Shown here: in pieces, positions 1 to 13,355 of the stretch | How the letters are laid out: the number at the start of each line of letters is the position of its first letter | Numbering within the stretch: the first letter of the stretch is position 1 | Source: Mangrovihabitans endophyticus | GTDB lineage: Bacteria > Actinomycetota > Actinomycetes > Mycobacteriales > Micromonosporaceae | DNA length: 64,000 nucleotides | Direction of reading: 5' to 3' | Assembly (NCBI RefSeq): GCF_014646155.1 | Contig: NZ_BMMX01000020.1 | Location: 1-64,000 of the forward strand | Position numbers and translations under genes: made by a program | The notes under the pieces: model-generated | What the model was told of the DNA's origin: nothing | The model's input: the letters and a program-made list of their open reading frames with translations, nothing else | The model's database searches: none

Positions 1-931
1 TCGTGCACCGCTGCGGGCCCGGCTGCGGCGCGACTGGCCGTTGCTGGTGATGGTCGCGCCCGGTGTGCTGTTGCTCGGCGTCTTTCATTACCTGCCGGTG
101 CTCGGAAACGTGGTCGCGTTCCAGGATTACAACCCCTACCTGGGTGACAGCCCGTTGCAGGCGTTCGCGAACAGCACCTGGATCGGGTTGGAGAACTTCC
201 GCATCCTGTTCGACGACCCGGCGTTCTGGGACGCCGTCTGGAACACCCTGTCCATCACCGCGTTCCAGCTCGTGTTCTTCTTCCCGCTGCCGATCCTGCT
301 GGCGGTCCTGCTCAACAGCGTGCTGTCCACGCGGCTGCGCGGCTTCGTGCAGACCGTGGTCTATCTGCCGCACTTCTTCAGCTGGGTGCTGGTGGTCACG
401 TTCTTCGTGCAGATGCTGGGTGGCGCCGGGCTGCTGTCCCAGGAACTGCGCGACGCGGGCATCTCGCCGCCGCAGATCATGTCCAACCCGCACACGTTCA
501 TCGTGCTGGTCACCGGCGAAGCCGTCTGGAAGGACGTGGGCTGGGGCACCATCGTCTTCCTGGCCGCGCTGTCCACCATCGACCCGAACCTCTACGAGGC
601 GTCCGCGGTAGACGGCGCCAGCCGCAGGCAGCGGCTCTGGCACATCACCCTTCCCGGGCTGCGGCCGGTCATCGTGCTGCTGCTGATCCTGCGCCTGGGC
701 GACGCGCTCACCGTCGGCTTCGAGCAGTTCCTGCTGCAACGCGACGCGGTCGGGCGACAGGCCGCCGAAGTGGTCGACACGTACGTCTATTTCCAGGCGA
801 TCATCACCGGCGACTACGGCCTGGGCGCGGCAGCCGGACTGTTCAAAGCGCTCGTTGGCCTGTTCCTCATCCTGCTCGCCAACCGGGTCGCCCACGCGAT
901 GGGCGAACAGGGGGTGTACTCGCGATCATGA
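1..931 (+). CDS. sugar ABC transporter permease, LplB type (5' truncated)
   Basis: Inner subunit of a binding-protein-dependent sugar importer in the cytoplasmic membrane. The reading frame is open from base 2, so the true start lies before the window; the visible Arg-rich stretch before the first helix (RRDWP) is typical of the LplB/UgpA N-terminus. About 309 residues are visible with roughly six hydrophobic segments. Near nt 597-660 is the EAA loop (EASAVDGASRRQ, then a LPGLRP stretch), which docks to the ATPase. The stop overlaps the next permease start (ATGA), so the two are translationally coupled. The solute-binding protein is presumably upstream and out of view. No ATPase gene is visible, which is normal for this subfamily because a shared ATPase is often encoded elsewhere. 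Confidence 0.93.
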   Translation, partial: RAPLRARLRRDWPLLVMVAPGVLLLGVFHYLPVLGNVVAFQDYNPYLGDSPLQAFANSTWIGLENFRILFDDPAFWDAVWNTLSITAFQLVFFFPLPILLAVLLNSVLSTRLRGFVQTVVYLPHFFSWVLVVTFFVQMLGGAGLLSQELRDAGISPPQIMSNPHTFIVLVTGEAVWKDVGWGTIVFLAALSTIDPNLYEASAVDGASRRQRLWHITLPGLRPVIVLLLILRLGDALTVGFEQFLLQRDAVGRQAAEVVDTYVYFQAIITGDYGLGAAAGLFKALVGLFLILLANRVAHAMGEQGVYSRS

Positions 932-1830
932 CGACCACCGCGCACGCCCGCCGCCCGGCCTGGGAGGAGAAGCCCTCACCCGCCGGGCAGACCATCAAGG
1001 GCGGCATTCTCCTCGCCGTCGTGCTGGCCGTGCTGATCCCGCTGTGGGTGGTGCTGGTCACCAGCGTGTCGTCACGGGAGACCATCAACGCCGCCGGCGG
1101 GCTGGTGGTGGTGCCCCGCGAGATCGACCTGGACGCGTACCGGGTCATCTTCGCCGGCGGGCAGGTCGCCCGTGCGCTGGGGATCAGCGCCGTGGTGACG
1201 GTCATCGGCACCGCGGTGAGCCTGGTGGTCACCGTGCTGGCCGCGTACGGGCTGTCCCGGCCCGGCTCGGTGGCGCACCGAGGGCTGCTCTTCTACTTCC
1301 TGCTCACGTTCCTGATCTATCCGGGGCTGGTGCCCAGCTATCTGGTGGTGACCGGCGTCGGCCTCAAGGACAACCTGTTGTCGCTGGTCCTGCCGGTGGC
1401 GGTGAACGTGTTCAATCTGGTCGTGGTGCGGGCGTTCATCCAGAACATCCCGGCCGAGCTGATGGACAGTGCCCGGGTGGACGGGGCGGGCGAGTTCCGC
1501 ATCCTCCTGCGCATCGTGCTGCCGCTGTCCAAGGCGGTGATCGCGGTGGTGGGCCTGTTCTACGCCGTCGGCTACTGGAACGTGTGGTTCACCGCGCTGC
1601 TCTACATCGACGACAACCAGAAGTTCCCGATCCAACGGATCCTGCAGAGCTTCATCCTGGCCGGGCTGACGCCGCAGACCTCGGGCAGCGCGGTGGGCGT
1701 CGCCCTGCCGCCCACCCTGGCGATCAAGATGGCGGTGGTCGTGGTGACGGTGTTGCCGATCGCCGTGGTGTACCCGTTCCTGCAACGCCACTTCATCCGG
1801 GGAGTGCTGATCGGCGCCGTCAAGGGGTGA
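928..1830 (+). CDS. sugar ABC transporter permease, LplC/YtcP type
   Basis: Second permease of the importer, 300 residues. Domain order is a short cytoplasmic N-terminus, first helix near residues 28-50, a periplasmic loop, then five more helices. The EAA loop lies near residues 175-205 (DSARVDGAGEF followed by LPLSKAV). ATG at 928 overlaps the previous stop TGA by one base-shifted ATGA. The family (LplC/YtcP) usually handles oligosaccharides released from complex polysaccharide. Genes immediately downstream are a GH95 and a GH42 glycosidase, which suggests the imported sugar is a fucosyl- or galactosyl-substituted oligosaccharide; that is inference from context. The last 11 bases overlap the 3' end of the convergent GH95 gene. 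Confidence 0.94.
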   Translation: MTTTAHARRPAWEEKPSPAGQTIKGGILLAVVLAVLIPLWVVLVTSVSSRETINAAGGLVVVPREIDLDAYRVIFAGGQVARALGISAVVTVIGTAVSLVVTVLAAYGLSRPGSVAHRGLLFYFLLTFLIYPGLVPSYLVVTGVGLKDNLLSLVLPVAVNVFNLVVVRAFIQNIPAELMDSARVDGAGEFRILLRIVLPLSKAVIAVVGLFYAVGYWNVWFTALLYIDDNQKFPIQRILQSFILAGLTPQTSGSAVGVALPPTLAIKMAVVVVTVLPIAVVYPFLQRHFIRGVLIGAVKG

Positions 1831-4060
1831 CCGTCATGCCGACCGCATCGCCGCGCGCACGCCGGGAGATCCAACTCAGTGTCAACGGCTGGTGGGCCGG
1901 CAGGACGCCCGACCAGCGGCCCGGACCGGCCGTGACGACCAGCGGCGTGTCGCGCCTCGCCACCAGCTCCGCGATCACCATGCCGGGTGCCCAGCGCAGC
2001 TCGCGCAGGGTGATCGCGTCGCGCGTCCGCAGCCCGGTGACCCGCCCGCGAGGCCAGGCGGCGGGCAGCGCGGGCAGCAGGTCGAGCCGGCCGTGCGCGC
2101 ATCGCACGAGCATCGCCGCGACGACCGCGGGCAGGCCACCGGCGATGTCCACGTTGAAGATCGCGCCCCGGTTGTGCGTCGGCACCAGCGTCGGCCGCCA
2201 ATAGCGGGTGGCCATCCCGGCGACGCACCGGTACGCCTCCTCCGCCATGCCCAGCGCCGCGGCGGCCAGGCCGAGCTGGGTCAGCCCGTACGCCATCTCG
2301 TCCGCCTCCGCGGTGTCCCACCAGGCCAGCCGGTCACGCACCGCGGCCCGTGCCGCCGCCCGGGTCGCCGGATCCTCGGTGATCAGCGGATCCGGCTCGT
2401 ACCACAGCGGCCACAGGTGCGACGCGTGCCGGTGCGCCGGCTGGTCGTCCAGATCCGGGTGCAGCCATTCGGCCAGCCGGCCGTCCGCCACCCGGTAGCC
2501 CGGCAGCGCGTCCCGCAACGTCCGCCATCCTTCCCGGTCCGGCTCCTCGGGGCCGGTCAGCGCGAGCAGGTTGGTCAGCACGTCGCGGGCGATGGCGACG
2601 TCCATGGTGGCATCCACGCATGCCTGCGATCCGGTGCCGGCCGGCGCGTTCTCCGGCGAGTAGGACGGCGCGAACGTCGCACGCCCGTCCCGGATCTGCA
2701 CGAAGTCCCGGAGGAACTGCGCGCATTCGCGCAGGAACGGCAACGCCCGCTCGTGCAGGAACCGCTGGTCGCCGGTGTATCGCCAGTAATCCACGTAGAG
2801 CCGGGCGAGCCAGCCCGCCCCGGCGGTCCAGAACGTCTGGCACCACACCGGCCCGAAGTGGTTCTGCCGGCCGTGGGTGGACAGGTGCACCGGCGTCAGC
2901 ACCCCGCCCGCGCCGTACAGCCGTCGAGCGTTGCGCCGCAGGTCGCCGCGGACCCGGTCGATCAGGTCGAAGACCGGCAGCAGCAACTCCGGGGTGCCGG
3001 TGGGCAGCAGACCGGCGACCGCCGCGGCCAGGTTGCCGTCCAGCGTGTATCCGCTGGACCAGGGCGGCGTCCAGGTGCCGCTCCAGACGCCCTGCAGGGT
3101 GGGCGGCAGCGCGCCGCAACTGCTGATGATCACGTACCGCCCGGCGTCGAAGAGGCGTTCCACCAGTGCCGGATCGGCCGCGGCGCGGCCCTCGCCCGCG
3201 TGCGCGAGCAGATCCGCGGTCGCGGCGGTGCGCTCCGCGGGTGCCGCACCCAGGTCCAGGTGGACCCGGCCGAACAGCTCGCCGTGCACCGCCGCGTGCT
3301 CGGCGAGCAGGGCATCGAAGTCGTCGGCCGGGGGCTCCGGGTCCGGGTCGCCGGGCAGCAGCGTGCGGATCACCAGTACGGCGTCCGACTCCAGCACCCC
3401 GGCGGGAGCCGTGGCACCGCCCCGCACCCGGCAGTGCACCCGATAGCCGGAGAGTGCGCCGGGCCAGGTCGCCTCCGGAAAACGCGCGGACAGCATGATC
3501 GCCTCGGGCGTGACCGCCACATCGGACACATACCGGCGCGGTGGCGCGCCGTCGATCGGCGTCAGTCGCAGGCTGCCCGCGAAGCCGCCGGTGGCGCTCA
3601 GCCGCACCACGATCGCGTCCAGGGGCCGGGAGGCGAACGCGGACAGGCACACCGTGCCGGCGGCGTCTTGCCGGCGCAGCGTGACCAGGCCGGTTTCCGG
3701 GTCGACGTCGCGCCGCACCGGTCCGGCCGCGCTGGGGGAGCGTGGCCGCACGGTCAGCGTGGCGGCGCCGACCAGCGGGTCGATCCAGAGAGTCTCGGCA
3801 TACCGCGGGTCCGCCGCTGCCGCTTCCCGCCAGACCGCGGTGGCCGCCTGCGCGTACCGGCCGGCGCGCAGCATGTCCCGCAGCTCGGGCAGCCTGCTCG
3901 CGGTGTCCGGCGGATCCCGTGGCGGGTGCAGCGGCAGGAACAGCCGCTCGTGCGAGAACGTCAGCCGCAGCGCCGCCGGACCGCCCCGGCACAGCGCGCC
4001 CTGCCGGCCGTTCCCGGTGACCAGGGCGTCCTCCCAGCCGTCGTTGACACCATCGATCAC
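1820..4060 (-). CDS. glycoside hydrolase family 95-like (alpha-L-fucosidase/galactosidase)
   Basis: Predicted exo-glycosidase of about 746 residues. The N-terminal beta domain starts with VTGNGRQGALC, the equivalent of the GNGRLGA signature of GH95. The (alpha/alpha)6 barrel carries LQGVWSGTWTPPW, SYSPENAP and HRHASHLWPLWY. In GH95 the general acid is the Glu of the SPEN motif, here about residue 470. No signal peptide is visible, so it probably acts on imported oligosaccharide in the cytoplasm. GTG at 4060 is preferred; a TTG at 4096 would add 12 residues but would run through the ribosome site of the divergent GH42 gene. GH95 members hydrolyse alpha-1,2-L-fucosides or alpha-L-galactosides; which one is not decidable here. 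Confidence 0.82.
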   Translation of the reverse strand: MIDGVNDGWEDALVTGNGRQGALCRGGPAALRLTFSHERLFLPLHPPRDPPDTASRLPELRDMLRAGRYAQAATAVWREAAAADPRYAETLWIDPLVGAATLTVRPRSPSAAGPVRRDVDPETGLVTLRRQDAAGTVCLSAFASRPLDAIVVRLSATGGFAGSLRLTPIDGAPPRRYVSDVAVTPEAIMLSARFPEATWPGALSGYRVHCRVRGGATAPAGVLESDAVLVIRTLLPGDPDPEPPADDFDALLAEHAAVHGELFGRVHLDLGAAPAERTAATADLLAHAGEGRAAADPALVERLFDAGRYVIISSCGALPPTLQGVWSGTWTPPWSSGYTLDGNLAAAVAGLLPTGTPELLLPVFDLIDRVRGDLRRNARRLYGAGGVLTPVHLSTHGRQNHFGPVWCQTFWTAGAGWLARLYVDYWRYTGDQRFLHERALPFLRECAQFLRDFVQIRDGRATFAPSYSPENAPAGTGSQACVDATMDVAIARDVLTNLLALTGPEEPDREGWRTLRDALPGYRVADGRLAEWLHPDLDDQPAHRHASHLWPLWYEPDPLITEDPATRAAARAAVRDRLAWWDTAEADEMAYGLTQLGLAAAALGMAEEAYRCVAGMATRYWRPTLVPTHNRGAIFNVDIAGGLPAVVAAMLVRCAHGRLDLLPALPAAWPRGRVTGLRTRDAITLRELRWAPGMVIAELVARRDTPLVVTAGPGRWSGVLPAHQPLTLSWISRRARGDAVGMTVTP

Positions 4061-4072
4061 CGCACCTACTTT
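4044..4072 (+). promoter_or_regulatory. near-consensus sigma70-type promoter of the GH42 gene
   Basis: TTGACA at 4044-4049 and TACTTT at 4067-4072 are separated by exactly 17 bp, giving a start of transcription near 4079 and a leader of about 28 nt before GTG 4107. The -35 box lies inside the first codons of the divergent GH95 gene, so the two genes' control elements are interleaved. Such a good -35/-10 match is uncommon in this GC-rich window, which suggests strong transcription held down by a repressor. Confidence 0.6.
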
Positions 4073-4106
4073 GGCTGGACTCCCAACAAAGGACAAGGGG
4101 GCCGGC

Positions 4107-6128
4107 GTGTTCTACGGCGGCGACTACAACCCGGAGCAATGGCCGGAACGGGTCCAGGACGAGGACATGGCGCTGATGCGCGCGGCCGGCATCACCGCGG
4201 TCACCGTCGGCGTGTTCTCCTGGTCGTGGCTGGAACCGGCGCCGGGGCGGTACGAGTTCGACTGGTTGGACCGGGTGCTCGACCGCCTCGCCGCGCACCG
4301 GATCGCCGCGGTGCTGGCCACCCCGACCGCCTCGCCGCCGCCCTGGTTCTCGCTGGCGCACCCGGAGGCACTGCCGGTCGGCGCGGACGGCGTGCGGCTC
4401 AGCCACGGCAGCCGGGACACCTACTGCGCCAGCGCGCCCGCCTACCGGGCCGCCGCGCGCAGCATCGCCGCGGTGCTGGCCCACCGGTACGCCGAACACC
4501 CCGCCCTGGCCCTGTGGCACGTGCACAACGAGTACGGCACCACCTGCCACTGCGACATCACCGCCGAGGCGTTCCGTGGCTGGCTGCGCGCCCGTCACGG
4601 CGACCTGGACGGCCTCAACGAGGCCTGGACCACGGCGTTCTGGAGTCAGCGCTACACCGACTGGGCGCAGGTCCGGCCGCCCCGGGTCACCCAGTACCTG
4701 CCCAACCCGGCACAGGTGCTGGACTTCCGCCGGTTCACCTCGGACGAACTCCTCGACGCGTACGTCGAGCAGCGCGACGTGCTGCGCGCCGCGACCCCGG
4801 GCATCCCGGTGACCACCAATTTCGTGCTCGGCGACTGGGTGCCGGTGGACCATGCGCGCTGGTCGCGCGAGGTCGACCTGGTCGCCGTGGACCATTACCC
4901 GAACGACGCCGGTCCGGCCGCGGAGGAGCAGGCGGCGTTCGCGGCGGACCTGGCCCGGGGATGGGCACGTTCCGCCGGCGCTGCGGACTGGTTGCTGATG
5001 GAGACCGCACCGAATCTGATCTACACGCCGGACCGGATGCACACGAAGGAGCCCGGCCGGATGGTGCGGCAGAGCATCGCCGCGGTGGCTCGCGAGTCCC
5101 GCGGCGCGATGTTCTTCCAGTGGCGTGCCCCGTGCGGTGGCGCGGAGCTGTTCCACTCCGCGCTGGTGCCGCACGCCGGGCCGGACAATCGGGTGTTCCG
5201 CGAAGCCGTCGAGCTGGGCGACCGGCTGCCCCGGCTGACCGAGGCCGCGGCCGGACGGGTCGACGCGCGGGTGGCGGTGCTGTTCGACGAGCCGTCCGCG
5301 TGGGCCCTGCAGGCACCGGGCCTGCCGGCGCAGGTGAACCACCGGGCGGAGGCGGAGCGGGCGCACCGCGCGCTCTGGCGCCTGGGCATCACCGCCGACG
5401 TGCTGGGCGGCGGCGACCTGAGCCGGTACGCGATGGTGGTGCTGCCCGCGCACTACCTGATGAGCGACGAGCGGGCCGGGCGGTTGCGCGCCTGGGTGGT
5501 TGCCGGTGGCCGGCTGGTCGTCACCTATCTCAGCGGCGTGGCCGACGAGCATGCCCGGATCCGCACCGGCGGGTACCCCGGCGCGCTGCGGAACCTGCTC
5601 GGCGTGCGGGTGGAGGAGTTCCACCCGGTGCCGCCGGGGGAGACCGTGCCGCTGTCCGGCGGGGGCACCGGCGCGCACTGGACCGAGACGGTGCACCCGG
5701 AGGGGGCCGACGTGGTGACCCGGTATGCCGCCGGGGTGCTGGACGGCCGCCCGGCCGTCACCCGGCACGCCCTGGGCCACGGGGAGAGCTGGTACGTGTC
5801 CACCCGTGTGGATGCCGGCGGCCTCGCCACGCTGCTGCGCACCGTGGCGGAGGCCGCCGGCATCGGACCGGTGTGTGCGGATTTGCCGCCGGGCGTCGAC
5901 GCGGTGCGCCGCCGCGACGGCGAGCGTTCCTGGCTCTTCCTGCTCAACCACACACCGGAGGCGCACGCGGTGCGCGCCGCCGGTGTGGACCTGCTGACCG
6001 GTGACCGCGCGGACGGGATCGTCGAGCTGGCCGCGGGCGGCGTCGCGGTGATCCGCGAGGATCCGGCGTCCGGCCGGGTGGTGGGGGCGTCGCATGCGGA
6101 AAAGCCCGGAAAGCCCTCAGGGCGGTGA
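4107..6128 (+). CDS. beta-galactosidase, GH42
   Basis: Predicted 673-residue beta-galactosidase (or alpha-L-arabinopyranosidase), the usual GH42 length. The N-terminus is the diagnostic YGGDYNPEQW. The TIM barrel spans about residues 5-380 with the acid/base Glu142 in HVHNEYG and the nucleophile Glu299 in LLMETAPN. It is followed by the trimerisation domain (about 390-590) and a small beta C-terminal domain. Start GTG at 4107 follows a GGACAAGGGGG purine tract; the frame stays open upstream but that part is antisense to GH95. No signal peptide, so it is cytoplasmic. It fits the sugar importer and GH95 next door as part of one catabolic locus. Confidence 0.95.
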   Translation: MFYGGDYNPEQWPERVQDEDMALMRAAGITAVTVGVFSWSWLEPAPGRYEFDWLDRVLDRLAAHRIAAVLATPTASPPPWFSLAHPEALPVGADGVRLSHGSRDTYCASAPAYRAAARSIAAVLAHRYAEHPALALWHVHNEYGTTCHCDITAEAFRGWLRARHGDLDGLNEAWTTAFWSQRYTDWAQVRPPRVTQYLPNPAQVLDFRRFTSDELLDAYVEQRDVLRAATPGIPVTTNFVLGDWVPVDHARWSREVDLVAVDHYPNDAGPAAEEQAAFAADLARGWARSAGAADWLLMETAPNLIYTPDRMHTKEPGRMVRQSIAAVARESRGAMFFQWRAPCGGAELFHSALVPHAGPDNRVFREAVELGDRLPRLTEAAAGRVDARVAVLFDEPSAWALQAPGLPAQVNHRAEAERAHRALWRLGITADVLGGGDLSRYAMVVLPAHYLMSDERAGRLRAWVVAGGRLVVTYLSGVADEHARIRTGGYPGALRNLLGVRVEEFHPVPPGETVPLSGGGTGAHWTETVHPEGADVVTRYAAGVLDGRPAVTRHALGHGESWYVSTRVDAGGLATLLRTVAEAAGIGPVCADLPPGVDAVRRRDGERSWLFLLNHTPEAHAVRAAGVDLLTGDRADGIVELAAGGVAVIREDPASGRVVGASHAEKPGKPSGR

Positions 6129-9331: not shown

Positions 9332-9414
9332 TTGTTCCCCGATAGCGCAAAGTCTGAATAGTCTGTTTCGTGACGCATCACCACCGGGGTGGTCCAGCGA
9401 CACGGAGGAATGAG

Positions 9415-9900
9415 ATGAGCAAGGGCCGGCGCATCGCATCACTGGCCGCGGCCGCGACGGCGGTCGTGGCCGTGACGTCGGTAGTCCCGACACCGGTGTC
9501 CGCCGCAACGGAGACGAAGGGCCCCGAGCCGGTCAACGTCTCGCTGCAGACGGTGCGCGCGCACCAGCCGACGTTCGTCCACGTCTGGTGGCGCACCGAC
9601 AAGACGATCTGCGACTTCGAACTGCGGGTGTGGGGGACGCCGCGGGTGGAGGTCGGCTACCCGGCGAACACCGGCACCTACACGTCCTTCTCCCACGGCA
9701 GCAGGCTCGACAAGCGGGAGATCGACTACACCGCCTTCCGGGTCGACGCGGACGTCGCCGGGTCCCGGTGGATCTCGCTGCCCGCGATGCTGACCTACCG
9801 TTCCTGCGCCGGGGAGCCGCGCGACTTCGCCCGCACCACCACCTTCCGGCTTCCGGTGCACGTGCCGTCCGCGGCGGGCGGCGGCTCCGCCAGCTCCTGA
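9415..9900 (+). CDS. secreted protein of unknown function
   Basis: 161-residue exported protein. The signal peptide is MSKGRRIASLAAAATAVVAV followed by a likely cleavage after VSAA. The mature part is beta-rich with two Cys residues (ICDFEL and YRSCAGEP), probably forming a disulphide, and ends in a Gly/Ser tail. Start ATG 9415 has ACGGAGGAA upstream. No catalytic motif and no family recognised. A strong hairpin follows 30 bases after the stop. Confidence 0.82.
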   Translation: MSKGRRIASLAAAATAVVAVTSVVPTPVSAATETKGPEPVNVSLQTVRAHQPTFVHVWWRTDKTICDFELRVWGTPRVEVGYPANTGTYTSFSHGSRLDKREIDYTAFRVDADVAGSRWISLPAMLTYRSCAGEPRDFARTTTFRLPVHVPSAAGGGSASS

Positions 9901-9988: not shown

Positions 9989-12496
9989 TCACCGATCGGC
10001 CGCCATCATCAACGCGGTGGGGTCGGTGCAGACGAGTTCGACCGCCCGGGCCACCGTCGCCGGGTCGTACGTGGAGGCGTGGAACAACACCGTCACGTGG
10101 AGCACGCCGCCCATCTCGCTGAGGGCCACCGTGATGTCCGCCGGTCCGGTCCGCGTGGGAACGCTGTGGTTCACCCGCTGCGCCGCCTCGATAGACCACG
10201 GCAGGTCGGCGAGCGCATCGTGCGAACCCTGATCGATGAACGTCAACCGCGGTCGCGGGTCGGCCGCTACCTCCCGCGGATCCGGCGTGCCGGGCGCGCC
10301 GGCCACCGCGGCCCTGGCCCCGCGCAGCAGCATGACGGTGCGCATCGAACCGCGCGTCAACTCGTCCGTCAGCGCCGCATGGATCGCCGCGGGGTCGGTG
10401 AGCGAAGCCGGCGACAGGTAGCGCCGTGCGTCCACCACGAAGGTGGCGCCGCTCTCGTCCGGATGCAGACCCAGCTCGCGCAGGGCCGCGGCGAACGAAG
10501 CGAAGATGACCGCGGACGTGCTCACCCCCGGCGCGTACCGGTCGCGCCAGGCACGCAACCGGTCCGCGACCTGCGCCGACCGGTCGTACCGCACGGCGAG
10601 GCCGGGCGTCCACGGCCGGGTCGGCGCATCCGGCCGGCGCGGCGCGCGAGACGGCCGGAGCGCCGCACGCCACCGTCCCGGCCGCGCCCCGCCCTGCCGC
10701 CACCAGGCCCGCGGCAGGACGGTCCGGTGGCGAGACAGCGGTTCCATGTCGGCGGCCCGTTCCGCCGCCGCGGCCCGGATCAACTCACGCAGCAGGACGT
10801 TCACCGGACCGGCGTCGCCGTACGCGCCGGCGACCTTCATCGCCACGTATCCGCCGCCGGTCAAGATCCGGACCGGGTGGTGGCCACGTGGCTCGGCGAG
10901 TAGCCGCTCGGTCATCGCGCCCGCGTCGGCGGGCGCGTCACCCAGGTCGGTCACCGCGTCCCGCGCGTACGCCGCGAACGTCGGCGCGTCCATGTGCAGC
11001 CACCGCGCCCCGGAGCGGTCCAGGCGTGACACCGCGCGATGCGTGGGATCCGCGGCGTGCAGACCTGCCAGGGCGGCACGCAACCGCTGCGCGGACACGC
11101 CGGTGAGTGGCCCGACGGTGCGAACGTCCTCGGTCGGCAGCCCGGCACGTTCGAGCACCGTCAGGCTGGTGGTGGACACGAACCCGGCATCGAGCTCGGG
11201 GCGGGCGAAGACCACCCGCAGCACGGTCGGCGCGACAAGCACGGCCTCCAGCACCATCACCGCGGCCACCCAGGCGACCAACTCGGTCAGGCTGCCGCGG
11301 CTCCCGCCGTACCACGCGGCCAGCAACTCGGCGAGGCCGGCGAACACGGAGAAGATGCCCGCGCCGCGGAGCCGACCCTGCACCCGGGAGACGGCCAGGA
11401 AGAAGTGATGGAAGATGTACGCCAGATAGGTGAGCGCAAGGATCTTGAGCGCGGTGCTCGCCGATGCCGCGTACGACGCGCCGAACAGCGACATGATCGG
11501 TTCGGCTGCGAGGGCCACCACGATCGACGCCGGCAGTCCCACCACCAGGGAGATCGCCAGGCCGACCCGGACCTTGGAGCGCAGCGCCGCCTTGTCGCCG
11601 CTGGCCACCGCGAACAGGGTGAGCGCCACGTTGCCCGGCACCATGGCCAGGACCGCGTTCACCATGAAGGCGGTGTAGAAGGCGGCGTTCGCCTCGGCGG
11701 AGAGCACCGCCGTGACGACCAGCGGCAGTGTCGCCCGCGGCAGATAGGTGGCCAGGTTCAGCAGGTTGTGGTCGAAGGTCGCCCGGCCCCGTCCGCGCAG
11801 CAGCGCCAGTCGCGGCCGCAACGAGTCGATCACGCCGCGCCGGCGCAGCGTGCGGCTCAGCACCGCGATCGACAGCACCATGCCCGAAACCCAGGTGAGC
11901 AGCAGGCCGCCGCCGGTCACCGTGATCGGCAGCAGCGCCACCACGCCCAGCAGTGCCAGTTTCAGCACCGAGAACCAGGCGTTGCGCATCAGTTGCAACG
12001 GTCCCCGCAACAATCCGACCAGGGCCTCGTCCAGCACGAGCGTCATCGAGTTGAGGGCGATGCCGGCCACCAGAAGGACGGTGGTCGGCGCGTTGCCGAG
12101 GGCATCCTGCAGCCCCGGTATCCACAGGTGGGCGACCACGATGTAGCCCAGGCCACCGACCGTGGCGGCGCTGCCGGCCACCAGCATGCACGTGGAGATC
12201 AGCTCCCATCGGCGACCGGCGAGCTTCGGCAGATCCGAGATCAGCATGGTGCCCATGCCGAACATCCCGATGGTGCCGATCAGCGTCATCGCCGACACCG
12301 CGGCGGACGCCTTGCCGACCGCCTCGGCCGGTGCCGTCCGCGCGGCGAGCCACCAGTAGACGAAGCCGAACAGCGAGGTGACGGCGGTGGTCGCCATCAG
12401 CGATCCGGCATTCAGGAGGAGATCCAGGTGGCCGCGGAGGGTCGCCACGAGGCCTCTGCGCGGCGCATCCGTCGGCGATGCCTCGGTCGTGGTCAA
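9989..12496 (-). CDS. polysaccharide flippase fused to an inactive condensation-like domain
   Basis: About 835 residues. Residues 1-440 are a MATE/Wzx-type flippase with 12-14 hydrophobic helices (for example LLNAGSLMATTAVTSLFGFV and ALTLFAVASGDKAALRSKV), expected to move a lipid-linked glycan or similar across the membrane. From about residue 460 to the end there is a soluble domain of the CAT-like acyltransferase/NRPS-condensation fold: it opens with ADPTHRAV (equivalent of the HP-x-R start motif) and has VAGAYGDAGPVNVLLREL near residue 560, where active enzymes carry HHxxxDG. Both histidines and the Gly are replaced while the Asp remains, so catalysis is unlikely. Start is uncertain: TTG 12496 follows GGGGGG; TTG 12517 is also open. 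Monocistronic on minus, convergent with the secreted protein. Confidence 0.8.
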   Translation of the reverse strand: MTTTEASPTDAPRRGLVATLRGHLDLLLNAGSLMATTAVTSLFGFVYWWLAARTAPAEAVGKASAAVSAMTLIGTIGMFGMGTMLISDLPKLAGRRWELISTCMLVAGSAATVGGLGYIVVAHLWIPGLQDALGNAPTTVLLVAGIALNSMTLVLDEALVGLLRGPLQLMRNAWFSVLKLALLGVVALLPITVTGGGLLLTWVSGMVLSIAVLSRTLRRRGVIDSLRPRLALLRGRGRATFDHNLLNLATYLPRATLPLVVTAVLSAEANAAFYTAFMVNAVLAMVPGNVALTLFAVASGDKAALRSKVRVGLAISLVVGLPASIVVALAAEPIMSLFGASYAASASTALKILALTYLAYIFHHFFLAVSRVQGRLRGAGIFSVFAGLAELLAAWYGGSRGSLTELVAWVAAVMVLEAVLVAPTVLRVVFARPELDAGFVSTTSLTVLERAGLPTEDVRTVGPLTGVSAQRLRAALAGLHAADPTHRAVSRLDRSGARWLHMDAPTFAAYARDAVTDLGDAPADAGAMTERLLAEPRGHHPVRILTGGGYVAMKVAGAYGDAGPVNVLLRELIRAAAAERAADMEPLSRHRTVLPRAWWRQGGARPGRWRAALRPSRAPRRPDAPTRPWTPGLAVRYDRSAQVADRLRAWRDRYAPGVSTSAVIFASFAAALRELGLHPDESGATFVVDARRYLSPASLTDPAAIHAALTDELTRGSMRTVMLLRGARAAVAGAPGTPDPREVAADPRPRLTFIDQGSHDALADLPWSIEAAQRVNHSVPTRTGPADITVALSEMGGVLHVTVLFHASTYDPATVARAVELVCTDPTALMMAADR

Positions 12497-12700
12497 GAGC
12501 CCCCCAGTGATCGACAAGAAAACGGTAGTTACTCGTCATAATGGGGCGGTAGGGCGAAGCGGACGAAGCTAACGTCACCTTCCGGAGTGGAGCCGGTGCG
12601 GTCTGGCGGGTTCGGGGAGCCGTTCGGCGGAGGGCCGGACGGCCACATCTGCCTCAGCCGGGCTCATCACCCCAGACCGGTCGACTCCGCCCAGGCGGTC

Positions 12701-13195
12701 TCACTCCTCCCAGACCGGCACGGAAGGGAGGCCGCGCTCGGCGCGCGCCCGGTCGGTCAGTTCCTGGATGAGCTCGGTCTTACCTCGGGTGTAGGCGTCG
12801 CCGGGACCGTGCCGGGCCATCAGCCGGCGCTTCACCTGCGCGTATCGGTCCCGGTCCGCCGGATGCGCACGCAGATGGTCGCGCAGCAGCCGCTCATTGC
12901 GGGTCGGCCAGCTCGCGACCGTCACCACGTGCAGGTGGACGACCAGCCCGTCCGGATCCGACCGGCGCAGGAACAGCCGCTCCGGCATGTCCGTCGGGAC
13001 CACCTCGAACCCCGGCGGCGCGGTGACCGAGGCGAGGTCGTCGACCGCGGCCATCAGGTCGATGACCGGCTTGGCGGCCAAGCCGGGCACCGCCGTGCTG
13101 CCGATGTGCTCGATCACCGCGAACCGGTCTGCCAGGTCGGTGCACCACTGCGCGCCGAGCCTGGACCACCGCTCGTCGGACTCCACGATGCTCAC
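12701..13195 (-). CDS. GrpB family protein (UPF0157)
   Basis: 164-residue member of the GrpB family, which has a nucleotidyltransferase-like fold. Visible motifs are FAVIEHIGSTAVPGLAAKPVID, the family signature with Gly-Ser and the metal-binding Asp, and LHVVTVASW. Family members include the C-terminal part of dephospho-CoA kinase fusions; the reaction is not established. Start GTG 13195 follows GGGGGTCCGAC; a second in-frame GTG lies three codons later. Divergent from the LLM oxidoreductase. Confidence 0.9.
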   Translation of the reverse strand: MSIVESDERWSRLGAQWCTDLADRFAVIEHIGSTAVPGLAAKPVIDLMAAVDDLASVTAPPGFEVVPTDMPERLFLRRSDPDGLVVHLHVVTVASWPTRNERLLRDHLRAHPADRDRYAQVKRRLMARHGPGDAYTRGKTELIQELTDRARAERGLPSVPVWEE

Positions 13196-13256
13196 GTCGG
13201 ACCCCCGTCTCCGTAGTCGATCGCGTCGACAGCGACCCTAAACCCGGCAGACCATG

Positions 13257-13287
13257 GTGGATCGGCGCCCCCGTGGCGCCGATCCAC
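13257..13287. repeat. 13-bp perfect inverted repeat in a divergent gap
   Basis: Arms at 13257-13269 and 13275-13287 with a 5-nt loop (CCCGT). It looks like a terminator but sits between two divergent genes (GrpB start 13195, LLM start 13356), where no transcript needs to end. It could be a protein-binding site, an attenuator, or a remnant of a lost gene. Confidence 0.6.
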
Positions 13288-13355
13288 GCGGGCAACCTAG
13301 CGGCGGCCTCTGACATTCTCGGGCGCCGATGCCGGAGGCTTGGCACAATGCGGCG

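Follow-up and report, generated by a model that had tools for sequence, protein, structure and literature searches.

In polysaccharide assembly, the cytoplasmic decoration of a sugar unit and its flipping are usually carried out by separate proteins. Both steps appear to be united in the product of one gene (positions 9989 to 12496, minus strand) in a 64,000-nucleotide stretch of Mangrovihabitans endophyticus DNA (positions 1 to 64,000 of contig NZ_BMMX01000020.1, assembly GCF_014646155.1; hereafter, the window), which lies on contig C20 of a draft genome of 7.58 Mb in 220 contigs (G000). The gene fuses a Wzx-type flippase to an acyltransferase-like domain, and it is compared here with the closest described systems, on the basis of the accessible parts of the papers cited. 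One of these systems pairs LplT, a major facilitator superfamily protein, with Aas, whose acyltransferase fold is a different one. LplT-Aas resembles the fusion in that a lipid flippase is paired with an acyltransferase, apparently within one open reading frame in some bacteria; however, LplT flips lysophospholipids, and the phospholipid substrate is acylated after flipping (PMC11416262). Mycobacterial MurJ, a lipid II flippase with an intracellular pseudokinase domain, is alike in combining a flippase with a non-catalytic cytoplasmic C-terminal domain; its domain, however, has a kinase fold and is regulatory (PMC6180346), whereas the dead state described below was met in one genome of the genus. 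The gatekeeper TacF is a MOP flippase that monitors a decoration added to the unit in the cytoplasm, although its decorating enzymes are separate proteins and the decoration is phosphocholine (PMC13385700). The imp, wps, and gsf polysaccharide clusters of Actinoplanes missouriensis, of which imp, wps-1, and gsf are required for sporangia to form normally, share GT2, GH26 (WpsE), sulfotransferase, and Wzx-type genes with the genomes studied here, but no flippase–acyltransferase fusion is described in the accessible part of that work (PMC13390465). No published description of such a fusion was found, including in the accessible parts of PMC11064477 and PMC4183827, within a literature coverage that left subscription journals mostly outside.

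The protein thus compared consists of known parts in a new combination, for which a role in one pathway is plausible. Its N-terminal half is like Wzx/WzxE flippases of the MOP family in fold, in having about 12 helices, and in matching Pfam MatE, and unlike them in that an enzyme domain is added at the C-terminus and the gene lies away from the sugar cluster. The C-terminal half shares the fold of CAT/condensation acyltransferases (C domains of nonribosomal peptide synthetases, PapA5, wax synthase, AzeD, TRI3), a superfamily with the catalytic motif HHxxxDG. The wider fused family, which belongs to the Actinoplanes group of bacteria (the genus referred to below), conserves the Asp and the second His of this motif, but its first His is mostly Ala or Ser, the Gly is Ala, no Pfam family is matched significantly, and a flippase is attached; in the window, the catalytic His is gone as well. 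We read the intact fusion as an acylating flippase, and the window's copy as one in which the enzyme half is dead, its reaction has been taken over by a free acyltransferase encoded on another contig (C9), and the flippase half is still used. The probability of this whole reading is put at about 0.6.

The fusion is seen directly, as a single minus-strand frame running without a stop through the flippase and the second domain and ending at 9989. Translation may start at TTG 12496 (835 aa, with GGGGGG just upstream) or at TTG 12517 (842 aa); residues are numbered here from TTG 12517. Chance is a very unlikely origin, since fused copies recur in 51/67 genus genomes and full-length homologues with 61–74% identity occur in 36 further loci, the best named matches coming from Amorphoplanes, Pseudosporangium, Nucisporomicrobium, and Couchioplanes (72–74%). 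The gene and its parts are as follows:

9989..12496, minus strand: flippase–acyltransferase fusion gene (open reading frame listing, sequence, homologues in 36 loci and in 51/67 genus genomes)
11207..12496, minus strand: N-terminal half, Wzx/MATE (MOP) flippase with about 12 membrane helices (Pfam MatE, WzxE fold match, site conservation, charge bias)
9992..11206, minus strand: C-terminal half, CAT/condensation-fold acyltransferase domain, predicted cytoplasmic and probably catalytically dead here (model, fold matches, broken invariant sites)
11168..11203, minus strand: linker between the halves (matching residues 428–439 of the L002 model described below, confidence score below 50; poorly conserved)
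10811..10831, minus strand: active-site motif AGAYGDA (sequence, alignments)
10417..10424, minus strand: junction of a 16-residue in-frame deletion, DARR-YLSP in the window (alignments)

The model of the C-terminal half, built from the window sequence with 23 relatives, reached a predicted local distance difference test score (pLDDT) of 84.7, a value that does not show the folding of the window's own chain because the relatives were in the model's alignment. Over near its whole length it matched AzeD (Z 24.4), TRI3 (21.8), the CDA C domain (20.6), PapA5 (19.7), and wax synthase (19.5), in a list that shows matched families without excluding unlisted ones. The same set of CAT folds was matched by the second half of the AlphaFold model of L002, an intact relative. 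An unrelated fold is thereby ruled out, and a sequence-only reading of the window, which had taken this half for a CAT/condensation-like domain fused without a stop to a flippase and had called the architecture unusual, is borne out, also in the structural comparison with C domains and WS/DGAT enzymes. At the level of sequence the domain is nearly silent. The C-terminal half has no NCBIfam match and no PDB sequence match; taken with its relatives, it gives stray matches to three Pfam families with one member each, and two flavodoxins among PDB sequences (E >2). One of these strays is to Transferase (1/24 members, E 0.33), the WS/DGAT model is unlisted, and Condensation does not appear in the list of families matched by the 24 members (E up to 10, with HMMER filters dropping most weak matches), so that the likeness to BAHD enzymes and wax synthases is one of fold alone.

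The motif AGAYGDA occupies residues 563–569, where relatives mostly have [A/S]HxYGDA. Gly 564 (codon 10828–10826) replaces the active-site His and Asp 568 (10816–10814) is kept, just as the sequence-only reading had observed. To this a second lesion is added here: 16 residues present in relatives, including a conserved NF motif, are deleted near 10420. The NF segment is also absent from G080 (L127) and G088 (L157), and all three copies are without the His; they are not neighbours on the domain tree, though the fork of G080 is open. On these grounds the enzyme half is probably catalytically dead in the window's genome.

Dead enzyme is not the rule for the architecture. The genus search covered 67 genomes, including the window's own, and found the domain in 60 and the fusion in 51; in a thinner family-level sample the domain occurs in 5/31 genomes, three of these outside the genus. 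The 63 classified genus copies comprise 51 fused, nine standalone at the same chromosomal place, and three standalone elsewhere. His is kept in 50/51 fused copies, the window being the sole exception, and stands opposite Gly 564 in 36/36 homologues from the genome collection. Among the standalone copies it is kept in 3/3 elsewhere and in 3/9 at the same place (G004b, G008, G093), the replacements being Pro in G015, Arg in G068 and G078, Asn in G071a, Ser in G080, and Gln in G088 (fused versus same-place standalone, Fisher p 1e-5, uncorrected for relatedness). The extra standalone copies with intact His belong to G071 (L130 and L144, beside L128) and G004 (L076, beside L077), and both genomes have lost the flippase half. 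In G078 (L148), which has none of the cluster markers introduced below, the domain is frame-broken at the usual place, and only the first 330 residues of this copy entered the domain tree. A general loss of catalysis in the fusion is thus ruled out by the His in 50/51 and 36/36 copies. The proposal that the architecture carries a non-catalytic domain for binding or gating export failed on the same counts, since the search for the fusion elsewhere returned homologues with intact His beside the same flippase, the very result that the proposal had named as fatal to it.

The domain tree has the fused form at its base and the standalone copies branching within it, and the flippase half was lost at least twice; therefore, the usual direction is flippase loss, then often loss of catalysis. 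The window reverses this order, keeping the flippase and losing the enzyme.

The flippase half passes the Pfam MatE cut-off narrowly (25.1 bits against 24.9) and remains below that of Polysacc_synt (24.4 against 28.2); the third Pfam family listed for the fusion protein is noise. Its fold was compared as part of the full-length L002 model (pLDDT 80.5, predicted template modelling score 0.52), and the best match is WzxE (Z 31.8, root-mean-square deviation 3.6, 396 aligned residues). About 12 membrane helices were counted there, which agrees with the lower end of the 12–14 expected from sequence and not with 14. The joint score of 0.52 leaves the mutual placement of the two halves uncertain. Counted close to the helix ends of L002, Lys and Arg residues number 27 on the side of both termini and 5 on the opposite side, and this positive-charge bias places the enzyme half, by prediction, in the cytoplasm. 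Judging from the clusters described below, the N-terminal half probably transports a lipid-linked oligosaccharide.

In the window's copy, former constraints are gone from the enzyme half but not from the flippase half. Computed directly against the 36 other copies, 31/155 invariant positions are broken in the enzyme half and 4/171 in the flippase half; the copy that comes next after the window's, from Spirilliplanes (L024), has 11/135 and 8/175. The contrast between the halves, with the 16-residue deletion, rules out sequencing error as the cause. In a second test, sites fixed in the near clade were split into those invariant and those variable elsewhere. The enzyme half changed at 28/155 invariant (18.1%) and 8/38 variable sites (21.1%), with nine fixed sites deleted, and the flippase half at 3/168 (1.8%) and 12/85 (14.1%); in the controls G023, G017, G005, G072, and G016, enzyme sites changed in 0–4.8% of invariant and 2–16% of variable cases. 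The end branches of the window measure 0.81 for the enzyme half and 0.29 for the flippase half (the 52 rows have a median of 0.047 for each half), and dN of the enzyme half is about twice that of the flippase half. Pairwise dN/dS is below 1 in all pairs, and these ratios do not set the window apart from other genomes.

These data bear first on the possibility that catalysis was lost while the domain was kept as an arm that binds, docks, or gates, perhaps by holding the C9 acyltransferase or the substrate. The frame is open over 405 codons, the deletion is in-frame, the fold is still predicted, and mycobacterial MurJ with its intracellular pseudokinase domain offers a precedent (PMC6180346); yet sites that used to be invariant changed at about the same rate as the variable ones. 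The open frame says little either way, since under simulated unconstrained change, with 40–80 residue changes, the chance of meeting no stop was 0.05–0.50. We regard such an arm as unlikely. What the window's domain shows is a loss of the old constraint and not a conserved new role, and the dead domain, so far met in this genome alone, is probably decaying.

The same measurements address decay of the whole gene, with the flippase unused too. The flippase end branch of 0.29 is long, as it is in G023, and the surroundings are stripped. In relatives, the usual neighbours of the fusion gene are a WYL regulator, an ABC ATPase, an ABC permease, and CorA; other copies at the same chromosomal place lack single ones of these in the synteny table, and the window (9989–13329, compared with L099) is the sole copy at that place without any of them detected upstream, GrpB being kept. 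However, 165/168 flippase sites invariant elsewhere are kept, and no second match to the flippase half was found in the window's genome (E 0.001), though its polysaccharide cluster looks complete except for a flippase. Decay of the entire gene is therefore held to be very improbable.

The polysaccharide cluster lies elsewhere in the genome and contains three GT2 glycosyltransferases, a large membrane protein (POL), and usually a GH26 protein and a deacetylase; the three GT2 genes are present in the window's genome. POL has no Pfam family, and to call it a polymerase is a guess. Co-occurrence of cluster and fusion was computed directly. With a POL cut-off (at least 62% against at most 33%) chosen after the gap had been seen, POL is found in the window's genome and 32 others (62–79%) of the 67, and all 33 carry the fusion (Fisher 3e-6, uncorrected). 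A GT2 marker, GT2a, was searched in the 34 POL-negative genomes and in G024, with a cut-off of at least 70% (best other copy 52%) likewise set after seeing the gap. Within the 34 it occurs (70–77%) in 18/18 fused genomes, in 4/9 with a standalone domain at the place (G004, G008, G071, and G093, the GT2a of G008 and G071 carrying an in-frame TGA), and in 0/7 without the domain; G024 gave no match, and its cluster contig ends just beyond POL. In the 18 POL-negative fused genomes, another large-protein family (767–989 aa) adjoins GT2a, with short POL matches in only two, and within the stretch GH26 occurs in 14 and the deacetylase in 15. In the corresponding stretch of G004, G008, G071, and G093, the three GT2 genes are left, whereas both kinds of large protein are absent, as are GH26 and the deacetylase.

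Counting the C9 copy for the window's genome and the copy off the usual place for G071, a cluster marker and a His-Asp acyltransferase are both present in 55/67 genomes and both missing in 12, with none mixed; same-place copies in marker-less genomes have lost the His in all five. Presence of the flippase goes with the fuller cluster, and catalysis goes with the glycosyltransferases, as expected if a unit is decorated in the cytoplasm and then exported.

The large membrane protein found in the place of POL (L243 6842–9331 and homologues in 17 other genomes) looks unrelated to it, and the cluster partner is therefore not constant.

Outside the genus, L093 (G051) and L097 (G050) hold a separate flippase, 55–59% identical to the fused ones, with a separate acyltransferase of the same family about 1 kb away that keeps HxxxD. 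According to blastp comparison with typed genes from L079 and L095, the cluster around them also encodes GT2 enzymes, a DUF1616-like protein, GH26, a polysaccharide deacetylase, and a large membrane protein. G064 (L183) and G029 (L184) have a second, distant acyltransferase (30%, HxxxDG kept) about 3.5 kb from a distant flippase (23–27%). In 15/16 non-fused genomes the best distant flippase match (31–36%) lies within about 3 kb of a distant POL match, and in G078 a lesser flippase match, not the best, adjoins one; therefore, relatives of both proteins travel together elsewhere too.

Alternatively, the fusion might act in the making of some other product, either a glycolipid or a secondary metabolite, and its co-occurrence with the GT2 cluster might reflect no more than shared descent. 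The fusion gene does lie outside the cluster, usually beside the regulator, ABC, and CorA genes, and the independent events are few. Against this, enzyme state and cluster markers agree in 67/67 genomes, under cut-offs chosen with the data already in view. In two other genera such clusters themselves contain a flippase gene and an enzyme gene, separate from each other and drawn from the same two families, and distant relatives of the flippase and POL adjoin in non-fused genomes. Another product seems quite unlikely to us, and a lipid-linked sugar as the substrate is supported indirectly by co-occurrence with the polysaccharide cluster.

Whether other clusters contain the two activities was also searched. 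In the other 32 POL regions, profiles run on called genes and in six frames detected neither a flippase nor an acyltransferase (6/32 regions are cut by contig ends or covered short). In the GT2a regions of 22 genomes, tblastn and profiles on called genes detected no acyltransferase, the sole flippase match there being a second, more distant locus of G021. Among the genus regions examined, an acyltransferase inside the cluster is confined to the window's genome. It lies on contig C9 (L079 7626–8882), has the intact motif NHALGDG, and is placed on the side of GH26 that faces DUF1616, an arrangement shared with G057 (Spirilliplanes). It is 51% identical to its G057 counterpart, the neighbouring GH26 also being 51%, and this equal divergence fits age in the cluster more than recent arrival. 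In the four separate cluster acyltransferase copies, HxxxD is kept.

The following sequence of steps is proposed. In the intact family, the cytoplasmic enzyme half would acylate the lipid-linked sugar unit built by the cluster's GT2 glycosyltransferases, and the flippase half would then carry the acylated unit out. On the simplest account of the window's genome, the C9 acyltransferase would perform the reaction, and the fused enzyme, released from selection, would be decaying while the flippase half is still in use. Acyl transfer, its substrate, export by this flippase, and takeover by the C9 copy are what we infer from folds, conservation, and gene neighbourhoods.

Several observations weigh against this reading. 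The takeover rests on one genome, a 1-in-51 coincidence. The cluster tree places the window beside G017 and G005 (SH-aLRT, a Shimodaira–Hasegawa-like branch test, 93), and explaining the C9 copy therefore takes either a minimum of three losses in other lineages or a single regain. G057 has both an in-cluster and a fused acyltransferase, each with HxxxD, so takeover by an in-cluster enzyme is not automatic; the G057 cluster also carries a distant flippase of its own. The large protein beside GT2a differs between the POL-positive and the 18 POL-negative fused genomes, and the enzyme stands alone in G004, G008, G071, and G093 beside a cut-down cluster, which means that the enzyme and this flippase can part. 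The independent events are few as well, flippase loss needing two changes on the tree and His loss three, and independent-pairs tests offered 1–2 pairs and no power; the co-occurrence is therefore strong circumstantial evidence and not statistical proof.

If the acylating-flippase reading is right, an enzyme family lacking a Pfam model gains a likely role. The genus also forms a natural experiment in which the full protein, the enzyme alone, the dead enzyme, or neither is matched to full, cut-down, or absent clusters. Whether the flippase requires decoration of its substrate becomes directly testable in soil bacteria. A stronger version would make the intact fusion a licensing flippase, in which a physical coupling between acyl transfer and export lets acylated units alone be flipped, and the window's dead domain a docking or gating arm through which the free enzyme feeds the flippase. 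This version is distinctly improbable; if true, it would describe a MOP flippase that carries a pseudo-acyltransferase, much as MurJ of mycobacteria carries a pseudokinase.

A docking arm for a peptide assembly line, another suggestion made from the sequence, found no support: among the eight window genes between 6.5 and 17 kb, none is of the adenylation or carrier-protein kind (Pfam scan of these genes, with no wider search of the genome). Two of the nearest neighbours of the fusion gene are:

12701..13195, minus strand: GrpB-family gene, upstream neighbour (Pfam, synteny table)
9370..9900, plus strand: small, apparently secreted protein (by eye) whose gene faces the fusion gene (homologues at the same place)

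The second of these has no Pfam family and is a frequent neighbour of the fusion gene in relatives.

Further genes accompany the clusters in some genomes. A type III polyketide synthase lies near the cluster in two genera (L093 11029–12111, by Pfam; L097 11821–12885, a 71–73% homologue) and might make an acyl donor. A sulfotransferase stands beside the GT2 genes in L199 (2661–3596, Pfam) and, by eye, in L204, L239, L242, L243, and L247, and may point to sulfation of the polysaccharide, which has been proposed for wps-1 of A. missouriensis. Elsewhere in the window (41–6128), two membrane proteins resembling sugar ABC permeases (by eye) lie beside GH95 and GH42 genes (Pfam) and form a sugar-use locus.

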